Origin: Melioribacter sp.
GTDB taxonomy: Bacteria; Bacteroidota; Ignavibacteria; Ignavibacteriales; Melioribacteraceae
NCBI GenBank assembly: GCA_012026935.1
Contig: VEPI01000053.1
Coordinates: forward strand, 1-49,963
Reading direction: 5' to 3'
Length of the DNA stretch: 49,963 nucleotides
Both the position numbers and the translations under genes were made by a program. Position 1 is the stretch's first letter. Each line of letters starts with the position of its first letter. A model generated the notes under the pieces. That model was not told the origin of the DNA, ran no database searches, and saw only the letters and a program-made list of their open reading frames with translations. This document shows, in pieces, positions 9,808-15,730 of this stretch.

Positions 9808-9975
9808 ATGAAAACAGAATGCCCTGTATGCGGCGCTCAAATAGAACTGGCTTCCGATGCAGTCCAAGGTGAATTAATTGGATGCCCTGATTGCGGCACT
9901 GAATTGGAAATAGTTTCCGTCAATCCCCCTCAAGTGAAAGAAGCACCTCAAGAAGAAGAAGACTGGGGTGAGTAA
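9808..9975 (+). CDS. lysW: LysW amino-group carrier protein
   Basis: 55-residue acidic zinc-ribbon protein. Two CxxC pairs (C5/C8 and C26/C29) bind zinc. The C-terminus is EDWGE, the signature of LysW, whose final glutamate accepts alpha-aminoadipate (or glutamate) through its gamma-carboxyl. LysW carries the intermediate through phosphorylation, reduction and transamination and keeps its amino group protected. GAAGGA lies seven bases before the ATG. The gene overlaps the homocitrate synthase gene by eight bases and heads the operon, which suits a carrier needed in high amounts. The identification rests on size, zinc ribbon, C-terminal tag and neighbours, all in agreement. Confidence 0.96.
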   Translation: MKTECPVCGAQIELASDAVQGELIGCPDCGTELEIVSVNPPQVKEAPQEEEDWGE

Positions 9976-11134
9976 GTTGATCTGGGTATTAGATTCAACC
10001 TTACGCGAAGGCGAACAAACTCCGGGTGTTTATTTTGATAAACATATAAAACTTGCGATTGCAAGTTTACTGGAAGAAATTGGCATTGACATCATAGAAT
10101 CCGGTCATCCTATGGTAACACCGGAGATTCATGCTGCTGTAAAATCAATTGCTCAAAAAGGATACAAAGCTGTTGTTGGTGCTCACTCACGTTCTCTTCA
10201 AACTGATGTTGATCTTGCACTTGAATGCGGTGTTGGATTCCTCGGAATATTTTATTGCGTTTCAGACGAAAGATTATCAACAGTTTTTAAAAAAGATCTT
10301 GATTCTGCCATTAAACAAATTACAGATGTTATTAAATATGCAAAATCACAGAAACCAAATCTGTTAATTCGTTACACTCCTGAGGATACAGTTCGATCTC
10401 AATTTGAAAACGTAGTTAAAGCAGCAGTCGCTGCAGTTGAAGCTGGTGCGGATATTATTAGTGTTGCCGATACAACTGGTTATATGGTTCCCGGAACTTC
10501 AAGAAGCATGTATGATTATATATCACGTTTAATTCAAGAATTAGATAAATTAAATTTGCATCCTAGAATTGCAGTTCATTGCCATAACGATCGCGGCTTG
10601 GCACTTGCAAATGCACTTGATGCATACAGAGCCGGTGCAAGTATAATTGATGCCGCTGCATTAGGTTTAGGTGAAAGAGCCGGCATAGTTGATCTTGCCT
10701 CACTTTTGGTTGTGCTTACTGTTGATTATAATGAAACGAGATGGAACCTTTCAAAATTAGTTGAACTGTATGATTTAGTAAGTAAACACTCCGGGATTCC
10801 AATTCCGGCAAACTTTCCTATCACCGGGAAAAATGCTTTCACTCATTGTGCAGGCGTTCATACACATGCGGCTTCTATTAATCCTATGCATTATGAAAGT
10901 TTAAATCCGGAAATTCTTGGACGGACAAGAACTTTTTCACTTGATCATATGTCGGGAATAGCTTCATTGAGGTATGCGTTAAAATTAATTGATGAAATTT
11001 CATTGGATGAGCCTCATCAAATGGATGTTCTTAAAGAAGTAAAATCTGTTGGTCAACGCGGCCGTACGGTTGATCTTGCCGAACTTAAACATATCGTTGA
11101 TGCAGTTAAACATCACAAGACATTCAATAGCTGA
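9968..11134 (+). CDS. Homocitrate synthase (alpha-aminoadipate lysine pathway)
   Basis: 388-residue enzyme of the DRE-TIM metallolyase family that condenses acetyl-CoA with 2-oxoglutarate, the first step of the aminoadipate route. The motif DSTLREGEQ (D9, R13, E14) and the metal ligands HCH at H204/H206 within VHCHNDRG are present, as is the GLGERAG loop. The start is GTG inside the end of lysW, so the two are coupled. Isopropylmalate and citramalate synthases share the fold, but the length without an allosteric domain and the place between lysW and lysX favour homocitrate. The genes for homoaconitase and homoisocitrate dehydrogenase, which the route also needs, are not in the window. Confidence 0.84.
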   Translation: MSKLIWVLDSTLREGEQTPGVYFDKHIKLAIASLLEEIGIDIIESGHPMVTPEIHAAVKSIAQKGYKAVVGAHSRSLQTDVDLALECGVGFLGIFYCVSDERLSTVFKKDLDSAIKQITDVIKYAKSQKPNLLIRYTPEDTVRSQFENVVKAAVAAVEAGADIISVADTTGYMVPGTSRSMYDYISRLIQELDKLNLHPRIAVHCHNDRGLALANALDAYRAGASIIDAAALGLGERAGIVDLASLLVVLTVDYNETRWNLSKLVELYDLVSKHSGIPIPANFPITGKNAFTHCAGVHTHAASINPMHYESLNPEILGRTRTFSLDHMSGIASLRYALKLIDEISLDEPHQMDVLKEVKSVGQRGRTVDLAELKHIVDAVKHHKTFNS

Positions 11135-11157
11135 GATAATTTTCTCAGCTCTACCTT
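11129..11157 (+). terminator. Hairpin between homocitrate synthase and lysX, weak terminator or attenuator
   Basis: An 8-bp perfect stem (AGCTGAGA at 11129-11136 with TCTCAGCT at 11143-11150) has a 6-base loop and includes the stop codon of the upstream gene. Four bases separate it from TTTTT, so it is a poor terminator; partial termination or mRNA processing inside the operon is plausible. Confidence 0.4.
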
Positions 11158-11185
11158 TTTAAATATATTGAACTAGGAGAGTAAA

Positions 11186-12034
11186 ATGAAAATCGGGCTG
11201 CTTCATTCGTTGATTCGAAAAGATGAAAAATTCCTTATTGATGAATTCAATAAGAAAAAGGGAATTGAATTGGTAATGATTGACGACCGTGAAATCAAAT
11301 TTAATATTGGTAAAGATAAATTTAATCTTGATATTGTTGTTGAGCGGTGTATTAATCACTCAAGAGCATTGCATGGTCTGAAGTTATTTGAAACAGCCGG
11401 AATTAAATGTGTGAATACATATAGCGTAGCAACTATCTGCGGTGATAAGCTTTTGACATCATGTGCATTAGCAGATCATAAAGTACCTCAGCCGGAAGTG
11501 CGAGTAGCTTTCACGGAAGAATCTGCACTTAAAACAATTGAGGAGATGGGTTATCCCGTTGTATTAAAACCTGCGGTAGGTTCTTGGGGAAGATTGCTTT
11601 CAAAAGTAAATGACCGCGATGCAGCCGAAGCGATCCTGGAACATAAAGCGGTTCTTGGCTCATATCATCATTCTATTTTTTATATTCAAAAGTATGTTGA
11701 GAAAAAGGGAAAAGATATTCGTTCGTTTGTAGTGGGCGATAAATGTATAGCTGCCATTTATAGATCTTCTGCTCACTGGATAACAAATACTGCGCGGGGC
11801 GGTGTTGCTACTAATTGTCCTGTTACCGACGAACTAAATGATATCTCGGTACGTGCGGCGAAAGCCGTCGGCGGAGGAATTGTGGCAATAGATGTTTTCG
11901 AGACTACGCAAGGATTGATGGTTAATGAAGTAAACTATACAATGGAATACAAAAACAGTATAACAACAACCGGCGTTAACATTCCGCAGAAGATGGTAGA
12001 ATATATTTTACAAGTTGCCGAAGGTAGAAAATGA
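11186..12034 (+). CDS. lysX: LysX, alpha-aminoadipate-LysW ligase
   Basis: 282-residue ATP-grasp ligase that joins the alpha-amino group of aminoadipate to the gamma-carboxyl of the LysW C-terminal Glu, with ATP. Seen in order: the RimK-like N-domain, the central [10 protein letters not shown] phosphate-binding segment, and the C-terminal metal/ATP motif [13 protein letters not shown]. The last resembles the NEVNHTMEFKN motif that I recall from Thermus LysX rather than the glutamate-specific ArgX form. This supports a lysine role, though a dual lysine/arginine enzyme cannot be excluded. AGGAGAG precedes the ATG. It overlaps lysY by the ATGA coupling. Confidence 0.93.
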
Positions 12035-13074
12035 AATTGAAAGTTTCGATAATTGGCGCATCAGGTTACACAGGAGGAGAATTACTTAGACTTTTGCTTT
12101 TTCATCCCAATGTTGAAGTAAATCAAGTTACATCTGAAAGCTATACCGGAAAATTTGTTTACAAAATTCATCCGAACTTGCGCAAATCAACAATGCTCAA
12201 ATTCAGTTCTGCAAACGAGCTTCAGCCGTGCGATCTTTTATTTTTATGTCTGCCTCACAACAGATCACAGAATAAGATTGATGAATTTAAAAAGTTAGCT
12301 CCGAAGATTATTGATCTCAGTGCCGATTTCCGTTTGAAAGACGTTAACGAATACGAAAAATGGTACGGGCATAAACATGCTAGACCAGATTTGCTGAACG
12401 ATTTTGTTTACGGAATACCGGAACTTCACCGCACGGAAATGAAAAAAACAAATTACATCTCGAGTGCGGGATGTAATGCAACTGCAACTATACTCGGTTT
12501 GTATCCGCTTTATAAAAATAATTTAGTTGAATTAGATAGAACGGTTATTGAAGTTAAAGTTGGATCTAGCGAGGGCGGTAATAAAGGTAACGAAGGATCG
12601 CATCATCCTGAGAGAGCCAATGTTGTACGTTCCTATCAACCAACTCAACACAGACATACTGCAGAGATGCTGCAGGAACTTTCATTCGGACAAAAACTTG
12701 CAATTCATTTTTCAGCAACTGCGATAGATATGGTTCGCGGACTACTCGCCACTTGTCATGTTTTCTTGAAAAATGATCTTCAAGAAAAAGATATTTGGAA
12801 AATTTATCGAGATGCATACGGTAACGAGCCATTCATAAGAATCGTTAAAGAGAGTGAAGGTATTTACCGTTATCCGGAACCAAAATTATTAATCGGCACA
12901 AACTATTGCGATATTGGATTTAAGAAAGATGAATTCTCAAATCGCCTTGTTGTTATTAGTGCAATTGACAATTTAATGAAAGGTGCAGCAGGACAGGCGC
13001 TTCAGGCATTTAATTTAATGAACGGTTTTGATGAACGGACCGGATTAGAATTTCCGGGACTTCATCCAATCTAA
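12031..13074 (+). CDS. lysY: LysY, LysW-aminoadipyl-6-phosphate reductase
   Basis: 347-residue NADPH-dependent semialdehyde dehydrogenase of the ArgC/LysY family, which reduces the acyl phosphate on LysW to the semialdehyde. The Rossmann motif [14 protein letters not shown] is at residues 9-22, the catalytic cysteine C148 sits in [10 protein letters not shown], and the [20 protein letters not shown] loop is typical of this family. The C-terminal [12 protein letters not shown] helix is conserved. It is translationally coupled to lysX. Among the genes here only this one can perform the reduction step. Sequence alone hardly separates LysY from ArgC; the LysW context decides. Confidence 0.92.
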
Positions 13075-13082
13075 AATTATGC

Positions 13083-13148
13083 TCTTGCTCATGATCTTAA
13101 TCTTGATCTGTTAGAGCACGAGCATGAACAAGAGCAAGATCAAGAATA
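13083..13148. repeat. Hexamer array with internal inversion in the lysine operon
   Basis: Eleven 6-base units keep one phase. The first five are of the TCTTGA type (TCTTGC, TCATGA, TCTTAA and so on); the last six are of the reverse-complement type (AGAGCA, AGATCA). The whole could fold back on itself. It fills nearly the entire gap between lysY and the amidotransferase-like gene and ends four bases before the latter's ATG. Confidence 0.5.
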
Positions 13149-13152
13149 AAAA

Positions 13153-13797
13153 ATGTGCAGACTACTTTACGTTAATTCAAAAAATAAATTTTCGTGTGCC
13201 GAATATCTTAATAAATTTGCGGATATATCTAAGAACAGTAAGGAATTTCAAGGACACGGCTGGGGTTGTGCATATTTATTGAGCGGTAAATGGAATTATT
13301 ATAAAAATGTTAATCCAATATGGGAAGATGATCTTTCACAGTTTGGCAATTCGAACCGTTTGATTGCGCACGCAAGAAGCGCTTTCAAAGATGAAGGTGT
13401 TGCTGTTGAAAATAATATGCCGTTCTATGATGAGAAGTACATTTTTATTTTTAACGGTGAGCTTAGAGGCGTAAAAATTAAAGAGGAAGGTAAAATCGGC
13501 GCCGAAAAAATTTTTAATTATATAAAGAGATTTGATAAAGGAAGTATCAAGGATGCTTTACGAAAAGGGACAGAGATTATAAAGAATAAATCTAATTATA
13601 TCCGTGCTATGAATATTATTATGACCGACGAGAAGTCAGCTTATGTTTATTCACATTTCAACGAGGATGAGGATTACTTTACCATGAAGATTAAAGAGAA
13701 CGATAATATGTTAATTGTCTGTTCGGAAAAATTAACCGATGAAATTGGGTGGGCGCCTATTCAAAATAATACGTTGATGGAGTTACAATGCTTTTGA
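13153..13797 (+). CDS. Class II (Ntn) glutamine-amidotransferase-like protein in the LysW cluster
   Basis: 214-residue protein of the N-terminal-nucleophile glutaminase fold, most like the YafJ/EgtC branch. Cys2 follows the initiator Met and would be the nucleophile. GHGWGCAY (34-41), LIAHARSA with H73 and R75, ENNMPF (86-91) and FNGEL with N101-G102 follow the family order. By hand alignment, the position of the family's TDSE motif reads GAEK (116-119), so the Asp that binds the free alpha-amino group of glutamine appears to be missing. It ends 10 bases inside lysZ and lies between lysY and lysZ. I suggest a gamma-glutamyl amide hydrolase that releases lysine from LysW; this is inference. 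A generic glutaminase or regulator is the alternative. Confidence 0.82.
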   Translation: MCRLLYVNSKNKFSCAEYLNKFADISKNSKEFQGHGWGCAYLLSGKWNYYKNVNPIWEDDLSQFGNSNRLIAHARSAFKDEGVAVENNMPFYDEKYIFIFNGELRGVKIKEEGKIGAEKIFNYIKRFDKGSIKDALRKGTEIIKNKSNYIRAMNIIMTDEKSAYVYSHFNEDEDYFTMKIKENDNMLIVCSEKLTDEIGWAPIQNNTLMELQCF

Positions 13798-14579
13798 TCA
13801 AGATCGGCGGCGGAAAAGAACTAAACCTAAATGGAATAGTGAGTGATTTAGCCGCACTAAATGAAAAATTTATTATTGTTCACGGTGCAAATGCTTTGCG
13901 TGATGATCTTGCAAAAAAACTTGGTATTGAAAAGAAAGTCGTTACATCGCTCTCCGGTTATGATTCCGTCTTCAGCGATGAAAATACAATTGATCTCGCT
14001 ATGATGGCTTATGCCGGGCTAAAGAACAAACGTATCGTTGAATTGCTTCAGCAGAATGGCGTTAATGCAGTTGGACTTTCGGGTTTAGATGGAAAAGTAA
14101 TACAAGGTAAACGGAATAGTGGAATTAAAGTCCGGGAAGGTGGTAAGACATTATTGTTAAGAGATTTTTCCGGTAAGCCGAAAGCAATTAACAAACAACT
14201 TTTGGATTTATTACTTGATAACGGTTATACGCCCGTACTTAGCGTACCGTTGATAGATGAGAATAATTTTGCTATCAACTCCGAGAACGATGATATCATA
14301 GCATTGCTTCAAAACGAATTCAAAGCTGAAAAAATTATTTCTCTGATCGAAGCACCGGGATTTTTATTAGATAAAAACGATCCGTCATCACTTGTTTCAA
14401 ACATTTCAAAAGCTGAGTTGGAAGCCATGGAACAAAAAGTTGATGGAAGAATGAAAAGAAAAATTCTTGCATTAAGAAAATTATTTGAGTCCGGAGAAAC
14501 AACTGTTATCCTCTCGGACGGCAGGACAGAAAATCCAATTAAAGATGCTTTAAATGGAAAAGGAACTACAATACAATGA
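13788..14579 (+). CDS. lysZ: LysZ, LysW-aminoadipate kinase
   Basis: 263-residue amino-acid kinase of the ArgB/LysZ family that phosphorylates the side-chain carboxyl of aminoadipate carried on LysW. The N-terminal KIGGGKELN and IVHGANALRD segments bind the phosphates. A central GLSGLDGKVIQGKR stretch and the ATP-site region near AINSENDDIIALL follow, and KVDGRMKRKILAL is the typical C-terminal signature. It begins within the end of the amidotransferase-like gene and overlaps lysJ by ATGA. The length equals that of known LysZ. A role in arginine synthesis through LysW-glutamate is possible if LysX accepts glutamate. Confidence 0.92.
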   Translation: MLLIKIGGGKELNLNGIVSDLAALNEKFIIVHGANALRDDLAKKLGIEKKVVTSLSGYDSVFSDENTIDLAMMAYAGLKNKRIVELLQQNGVNAVGLSGLDGKVIQGKRNSGIKVREGGKTLLLRDFSGKPKAINKQLLDLLLDNGYTPVLSVPLIDENNFAINSENDDIIALLQNEFKAEKIISLIEAPGFLLDKNDPSSLVSNISKAELEAMEQKVDGRMKRKILALRKLFESGETTVILSDGRTENPIKDALNGKGTTIQ

Positions 14580-15730
14580 AAGATTACAAAGCAATCACCC
14601 AGAAATATGAAATTGATGTCTATCCACGCCGCGATGTTGTGTTAGTAAAAGGAAAAGGAGCGCGCGTATGGGACGATCAGGGTAATGAATATATTGACAT
14701 GGCTGCCGGAATCAGCGTTGCAAATGTCGGCCATGCAAACGATAAGGTTGTTGAGGCAATTTCAAAACAAGCGGCAACTCTTATTACCTGTCCAAATACT
14801 TTTTATAATGATACTAAAGCAATTTTTTTGGAAAAGCTCTTCAGTATTGCACCTAAAAATTTAACAAAGGCATTTCTTACAAACAGCGGAACAGAGGCAA
14901 TTGAAGCCGCAATAAAATTTGCTCGGTTGAACACAAAGAAAACAAAATTTATCGCTGCGATGAAAGGTTTTCACGGAAGAACTATGGGCGCGTTAAGTGC
15001 TACATATAAAACAGAATACCGTGAAGGATTTGGTCCGTTAGTTCCGGGATTTACTTTCGTTCCATATAATAATTTTGAAAAACTTTTAGCTGCTGTTGAT
15101 GATGACACTGCTGGAATTATTTTGGAGCCAATCCAGGGTGAAGGCGGAATTAATATCGGGCAGAAAGAATATTTTCAAAAAGTTAGAGAACTTTGTAACG
15201 AAAAAAATATTTTGTTTATTATTGATGAAATCCAAACCGGATTCTGCCGTACCGGAAAAATGTTTGCAATCGAGTATCTTGGAATTGAAGCAGATATGAT
15301 GACGCTTGCAAAATCAATCGCCGGCGGATTTCCGATGGGCGCATTATTATGTTCAGATAAAATTACAGTTGAAAAAAGCAAACATGGTTCAACATTTGGA
15401 GGCAACCCGCTTGCATGTGCTGCAGGAATTGCAGCTATAGATTTTATGCTTGAAAATAAATTGTGGGAACAGGCTGAAGCTAAAGGAAAATATTTCAAAG
15501 AGAAATTGGAAAAGCATCCGCTCTCAAAAGTCCGTGAAATTAGAATTATCGGATTAATGATCGGCATGGAATTAAAAGATAAATCTCAACCTGTAATTAT
15601 TGAATTACTTAATCATAAAATACTTTCTTTACCTGCTGGAGCTACTGTCTTGCGTATGCTTCCGCCATTAGTAATTAGTTACGAGGATTTGGATACGGTT
15701 ATAGAGAAATTAGTTGAAATTCTTGCCTAA
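14576..15730 (+). CDS. lysJ: LysJ, LysW-aminoadipate-semialdehyde aminotransferase
   Basis: 384-residue class III PLP aminotransferase of the ArgD/LysJ family. It converts LysW-bound aminoadipate semialdehyde to LysW-lysine, with glutamate as likely donor. Seen: NSGTEAIEAAIKFAR (cofactor phosphate site), GFHGRTMGALSAT, the Asp motif FIIDEIQTGFCRTGK, and the Schiff-base lysine K246 in TLAKSIAGG. The following STFGGNPLACAA is also conserved. It is coupled to lysZ and is the last gene of the cluster. The usual releasing enzyme LysK (a zinc carboxypeptidase) does not follow; after lysJ comes a repeat array and then nuoA. Confidence 0.92.
   Translation: MKDYKAITQKYEIDVYPRRDVVLVKGKGARVWDDQGNEYIDMAAGISVANVGHANDKVVEAISKQAATLITCPNTFYNDTKAIFLEKLFSIAPKNLTKAFLTNSGTEAIEAAIKFARLNTKKTKFIAAMKGFHGRTMGALSATYKTEYREGFGPLVPGFTFVPYNNFEKLLAAVDDDTAGIILEPIQGEGGINIGQKEYFQKVRELCNEKNILFIIDEIQTGFCRTGKMFAIEYLGIEADMMTLAKSIAGGFPMGALLCSDKITVEKSKHGSTFGGNPLACAAGIAAIDFMLENKLWEQAEAKGKYFKEKLEKHPLSKVREIRIIGLMIGMELKDKSQPVIIELLNHKILSLPAGATVLRMLPPLVISYEDLDTVIEKLVEILA

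Follow-up and report, generated by a model that had tools for sequence, protein, structure and literature searches.

The window, a 49,963-nucleotide stretch of DNA from Melioribacter sp. (contig VEPI01000053.1), is contig 55 of a genome (G000) that is 99.95% complete, and it carries a single run of genes on the forward strand at 9808–15730. The run begins with lysW (9808–9975), which encodes a 55-residue amino-group carrier protein with the C-terminus EEEDWGE (TIGR01206, 77.4 bits against a cut-off of 53.2; PF21344). It continues with a homocitrate-synthase-like gene (9968–11134) containing HMGL and HCS_D2 domains, which scores 336.9 bits with TIGR02146, under the cut-off of 413.6; with lysX (11186–12034), for the ligase that loads alpha-aminoadipate, which has GSWGR among its motifs (TIGR02144, 354 bits, cut-off 275.6); and with lysY (12031–13074), for the ArgC-like LysW-aminoadipyl-phosphate reductase (TIGR01850, 411.4 bits). 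The gene of principal interest here follows at 13153–13797, and the run closes with lysZ (13788–14579), for the LysW-aminoadipate kinase (NF010659, 256.9 bits, cut-off 223), and lysJ (14576–15730), for the LysW-aminoadipate-semialdehyde transaminase (TIGR00707, 433.5, cut-off 410; the top model, NF042418, gives 466.8 bits, under its cut-off of 700). Pfam and NCBIfam profiles therefore find LysW, LysX, LysY, LysZ and LysJ all together in this cluster. The first-pass annotation, made from the sequence, had described an amidotransferase-like gene with a cysteine at position 2 lying between lysY and lysZ, overlapping lysZ, in a cluster without lysK; this description was borne out, the overlap being 10 nt. 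The intergenic stretch between lysY and this gene (13075–13152) contains an imperfect 30-nt inverted repeat (13080–13109 and 13113–13142) whose arms are 73% complementary and separated by a 3-nt loop; no Rfam match was found at the site of this repeat (13080–13142).

The protein encoded at 13153–13797, for which we propose the role of a Cys2 Ntn hydrolase acting on LysW-gamma-lysine, is 214 residues long and starts MCRLL. It matches Pfam GATase_4 with 29.4 bits, over the cut-off of 23, and the only Pfam matches of its family are GATase_4/6, the M20 metallopeptidase domain not being among them. With the EgtC model TIGR03442 the window protein scores 48 bits, far under the cut-off of 218.65. As EgtC is the sole NCBIfam match for all 56 family members aligned (top E 2.6e-17), NCBIfam holds no curated model for the family, and PHROGs gave no match for it. 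An AlphaFold model of the protein (mean pLDDT 93.6), compared with the PDB, has the alpha-beta-beta-alpha Ntn fold, and the cysteine that follows Met1 is N-terminal once Met1 is removed. The top PDB match of the model is EgtC (Z 25.7, 1.9 Å over 201 residues, 18% identity), with GlmS and PurF behind it at Z scores from about 22 down to 19.

Five positions of the active site, Cys2 (codon 13156–13158), Arg75 (13375–13377), Asn101-Gly102 (13453–13458) and Gly116 (13498–13500), all on the forward strand, are invariant in a multiple alignment of the 56 homologs, in agreement with the earlier reading that Cys2, Arg75 and Asn101-Gly102 are kept. Cys2 would be the nucleophile after removal of Met1; in this fold, Arg75 corresponds to the binder of the substrate alpha-carboxylate, and Asn101-Gly102 to the oxyanion hole. 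A joint alignment shows that Arg75, Asn101 and Gly102 are common to YafJ, PurF and GlmS, with Arg75 aligned to PurF Arg73. YafJ is 27% identical to the window protein, and alignment with it by hhalign gave an E-value of 1.4e-11; with PurF alone hhalign gave no useful alignment, whereas YafJ and the joint alignment did. In these alignments IGAE (115–118) stands opposite TDSE of YafJ, SDSE of PurF and TDTE of GlmS, so that Gly116 occupies the position of the Asp of glutamine-using relatives. The first-pass annotation had placed GAEK (116–119) opposite TDSE, which is one residue off, but its point that the Asp is lost stands and its argument is unaffected. It had also named a structural alignment restoring the Asp as grounds for abandoning the idea; profile and multiple alignments instead put Gly116 there, in a GAE context.

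The Asp of this motif holds glutamine by its free alpha-amino group in GlmS and PurF. The class II amidotransferase fold would in itself allow the window protein to be a conventional glutaminase or glutamine amidotransferase placed in the cluster by accident. The Asp for free glutamine is, however, gone in 56 of 56 members, there is no synthase domain, the pathway has no ammonia-using step and the position of the gene is kept across phyla, and we regard this explanation as scarcely credible. In simulations of PurF, its Arg73 holds DON, a glutamine analogue, by the carboxylate (PMC7953260). In the C-terminal Glu of LysW the alpha-carboxylate is free, the alpha-nitrogen sits in a peptide bond and the cargo is held on the gamma-carboxyl (PMC10433800). 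Judged from its residues, a site in which the Arg is kept and the Asp is replaced by Gly fits the C-terminal Glu of LysW as substrate.

No LysK passed the cut-off in the window genome when it was searched with TIGR01902 and NF003367. The M20-like genes of this genome are three, YgeY, a PepD-like dipeptidase and a PRK08201 dipeptidase. YgeY (L001) was considered as a stand-in for LysK and rejected: it exceeds the cut-off of its own NCBIfam model, its gene neighbours that of a carbamoyltransferase and it scores 116.6 against 363 for LysK, and several LysW genomes have no such match. With TIGR01902, 4 of 14 control genomes and 19 Acidobacteriota did give a match over the cut-off, and we therefore conclude that the LysK search works. 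No LysK over cut-off was found in the 149 genomes of the class Ignavibacteria or in the 44 genomes searched among carriers of the best 80 loci described below, nor did tblastn find a LysK or M20 gene within those loci. An active lysK elsewhere in the same genome, named earlier as an observation that would undo the proposal, thus did not appear among the genomes searched. Furthermore, M20 searches gave no match at an E-value of 0.001 in three DPANN genomes, the closed AR15 chromosome among them, and only weak matches (top E 1.8e-6 or worse) in 5 of the 15 class carriers (G019, G084, G140, G146 and G148). A peptidase unrelated to LysK could nonetheless carry out the release unseen.

The first-pass annotation had suggested surveying genomes with lysW for this protein and had counted a lack of co-occurrence against its idea; the outcome agrees with its expectation. 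Among the 149 genomes of the class, the 214-residue protein occurs in 15, from four families, and these 15 are also precisely the ones with LysW (p 7e-21 on the assumption of independent genomes, which genomes of one class are not). In the DPANN phylum of AR15 (236 genomes), LysW exceeded the cut-off in five, all five of which have the protein near lysW and lysX (two of them, G161 and G179, correspond to loci L092 and L123). A scan of 84,980 species yielded 237 relatives, of which the best 80 were taken on. All of these 80 lie inside lys clusters, with lysZ as the next gene downstream in 77 and lysY as the next one upstream in 74; of the three that lack lysZ there, two stop at a contig edge, and several of the other exceptions are also at contig ends. 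Direct neighbours in the loci examined are lys genes, not egtB or egtD. The best 80 span Ignavibacteria, Calditrichota, KSB1, former Deltaproteobacteria, Gammaproteobacteria, Binatia, Acidobacteria, SAR324 and archaea, and in the closed archaeal chromosome AR15 (CP010425) the genes for LysW, homocitrate synthase, the large and small subunits of homoaconitase, HICDH, LysX, LysY, the hydrolase, LysZ and LysJ form one run. The link between the 214-residue protein and LysW is not due to chance.

Several further features of these searches may be recorded here. Split lys clusters occur at L110, L121 and L133, in which the order is hydrolase-lysZ-lysJ and lysY is absent from more than 6 kb upstream. 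Paired LysX-like genes were seen in the DPANN lys clusters L174 (2196, 3044) and L176 (8635, 9560), each of which may be a LysX and an ArgX served by a single LysW. No homolog of the 214-residue protein was found on plasmids; a Staphylococcus epidermidis plasmid (NZ_CP043848.1, 33368–33535) has an annotated LysW-type carrier protein, at 44.6% identity.

The Acidobacteriota contain both enzymes. In a sample of the 40 genomes of this phylum with the best LysW matches, LysK was found in 19, the hydrolase in 6 and both in none (Fisher p 9e-5 over the 27 genomes with either enzyme or a clear LysW). Two genomes have LysW over the cut-off and neither enzyme: G556, which has a fragment of LysK where a contig ends, and G499, in which no lysZ follows lysY and the contig ends soon after; in the remaining 13 genomes the LysW-like matches fall under the cut-off. 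A seventh carrier in this phylum, G623, has the same gene order; the LysK search left out G623, G210, G242 and G296. The LysX proteins of LysK-type clusters group as a single clade in the LysX tree, and the exclusion therefore reflects few independent events; it is to be read more as two inherited cassettes set against each other than as a tally of numerous replacements. G489 has a divergent copy of the hydrolase gene (L264, 3916–4623) after lysJ, where the Deinococcus cluster has its lysK; this copy has 27% identity, bears an insert and reads GTIGSQK where the family has GRIGAEK, again without the Asp.

These distributions also bear on whether the protein might be an editing or housekeeping amidase that clears wrong or stuck cargo from LysW while another hydrolase releases lysine. 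Its fold and active site would serve that purpose equally well, and the window genome does have other M20 enzymes, YgeY and the dipeptidases, that might effect release. An editing enzyme should, however, also accompany LysK, which it does in none of the 19 LysK genomes of the Acidobacteriota sample, and M20 matches are weak in the five class carriers and absent from the three DPANN genomes mentioned above. We consider an editing role unlikely.

The absence of LysK, the co-occurrence with LysW and the residue at position 116 instead support the proposal of the first-pass annotation, from which we infer the activity: the 214-residue protein very probably hydrolyses LysW-gamma-lysine in place of LysK, performing the release step in an alternative form of the LysW pathway. 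Once Met1 has been removed, Cys2 would attack the gamma-carbonyl of the C-terminal Glu of LysW; lysine, bound by its alpha-amino group to that gamma-carboxyl, would leave as the amine, and water would resolve the thioester to give free LysW. Arg75 would grip the free C-terminal alpha-carboxylate of LysW and Asn101-Gly102 would form the oxyanion hole. Since the alpha-nitrogen of LysW is tied up in a peptide bond, an Asp to hold a free alpha-amino group would not be needed, and Gly116 would take its position.

A release enzyme of this kind might have LysW-gamma-ornithine, of the arginine route, as its main cargo. The window genome encodes diaminopimelate decarboxylase, LysA, over cut-off (G000:C116:76630–77817), as do nine others of the 15 class carriers, with a further three below the cut-off. 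Since LysA is present, lysine may not depend on LysW in those genomes, and the window organism, by its gene content, may have two lysine routes. Moreover, a homocitrate synthase gene is absent from the cluster in 23 of the best 80 loci, all with enough upstream DNA, and these clusters could also serve ornithine; in Sulfolobus, a single LysW is used in both the lysine and the arginine routes (PMC10433800). Against ornithine as main cargo, the HWITNT-type site, typical of LysX, was found in nearly all clusters read; the window cluster has its homocitrate-synthase-like gene, and apart from LeuB and Idh the window genome encodes a third member of the isocitrate dehydrogenase family, with a separate LeuA in a leucine operon elsewhere. 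LysA is absent from two of the 15 class carriers, G019 and G140, and AR15 has a full lysine operon, with a homocitrate synthase over its cut-off and homoaconitase and homoisocitrate-dehydrogenase-family genes all present. Given the LysX site, the homocitrate-synthase-like gene in most Ignavibacteria clusters and the full route of AR15, lysine is the likely cargo, and we judge it very unlikely that ornithine is the main one. The C-terminus of the AR15 homocitrate synthase (L123, 987–2375, residues 375–455) matches LysM, a regulator that senses lysine, with 53.7 bits, perhaps reflecting feedback control by lysine.

The C-terminus of LysW itself varies among these clusters. In 18 of the 72 clusters with a readable lysW the protein ends in EDWGQ, the last codon being CAA or CAG (L087, L088, L094, L105, L107, L109, L112, L116, L122, L127, L130, L131, L135, L137, L142, L143, L026 and L033), whereas 54, the window's included, encode a C-terminal Glu. 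Further EDWGQ loci, Acidobacteriota and DPANN cases among them, are L195, L197, L198, L167, L169 and L269. A C-terminal Gln was seen only in clusters with the Ntn hydrolase, in none of the 19 LysK-type LysW proteins and in no LysW chain from a solved structure. Mapped on the LysX tree, the residue switches between Glu and Gln about 10 times, always outside the LysK-type clade, in which 4.5 changes would be expected at that rate and the chance of none is about 0.01 to 0.02 (the comparison leaves out L167 and L123, which have long branches). LysX loads its substrate through the gamma-carboxyl, which is impossible for Gln unless the amide is removed. The C-terminal Gln thus suggests, as a sign independent of the rest and read from gene sequences, that the hydrolase acts on the end of LysW.

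This raises the alternative that the protein is mainly a maturation deamidase, converting the C-terminal Gln of LysW to the Glu needed by LysX, in keeping with the restriction of EDWGQ to hydrolase clusters. The Gln does not by itself explain the hydrolase, because most clusters encode Glu: the gene is kept in the 54 that already do so, and the missing LysK would be left unexplained. We find a mainly maturational role highly improbable, yet the release enzyme may well carry out deamidation as an additional task. It would be the same reaction as release, with ammonia in place of lysine as the leaving group, and we see a serious possibility, if somewhat short of an even chance, that the hydrolase, in lineages whose lysW encodes a C-terminal Gln, first deamidates Gln to Glu before LysX loads the carrier and finally frees lysine. 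In that case one enzyme would both activate a carrier protein after translation and unload it, and once LysK was lost the last residue of LysW would have been at liberty to vary between Glu and Gln. The C-terminal Gln of LysW offers a simple, directly testable prediction.

An open-access literature search for LysW together with an amidotransferase found no paper proposing such an enzyme. The genome paper of Caldithrix abyssi placed LysWXZYJ and Hcs in one locus, left the lysine route for further work and raised the possibility of non-orthologous displacement (PMC5317091). The hydrolase is a candidate for filling such gaps in Ignavibacteria, Calditrichota, KSB1, Myxococcota, other former Deltaproteobacteria, Gammaproteobacteria, Acidobacteriota and DPANN archaea. 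If our proposal is correct, a non-homologous enzyme would be added to a core amino-acid pathway, a function would be given to a protein without an NCBIfam model, the Ntn hydrolases of this fold would extend to a protein-bound gamma-glutamyl substrate, and pathway annotators could score lysine prototrophy correctly.

Among known enzymes, EgtC of ergothioneine biosynthesis (PDB 4ZFJ, 4ZFK and 4ZFL) is likewise a stand-alone Cys2 Ntn hydrolase of the same fold that hydrolyses a substituted gamma-glutamyl amide. The window protein differs from it in being only 18% identical, in its weak match to the EgtC model and in having Gly for the alpha-amino-binding Asp of the superfamily, and its family lies in lys rather than egt clusters, with a protein C-terminus as the proposed substrate. 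E. coli YafJ, of GATase_4 (PF13230), is an ordinary sequence relative with the same catalytic residues, but reads GETDSE where the 214-residue family reads GRIGAE. LysK, the [LysW]-lysine hydrolase of the M20 metallopeptidase family, shares with the window protein the proposed reaction and place in the pathway, and in Acidobacteriota one or the other is found; its fold is unrelated, it uses metal chemistry rather than a cysteine, and its gene usually follows lysJ rather than lying between lysY and lysZ. We therefore propose that the 214-residue protein works like LysK, not that it is a LysK. With the Thermus/Deinococcus LysW pathway the present one has LysW, LysX, LysY, LysZ, LysJ and homocitrate synthase in common, whereas the last enzyme differs and the LysW of the hydrolase type may end in Gln.
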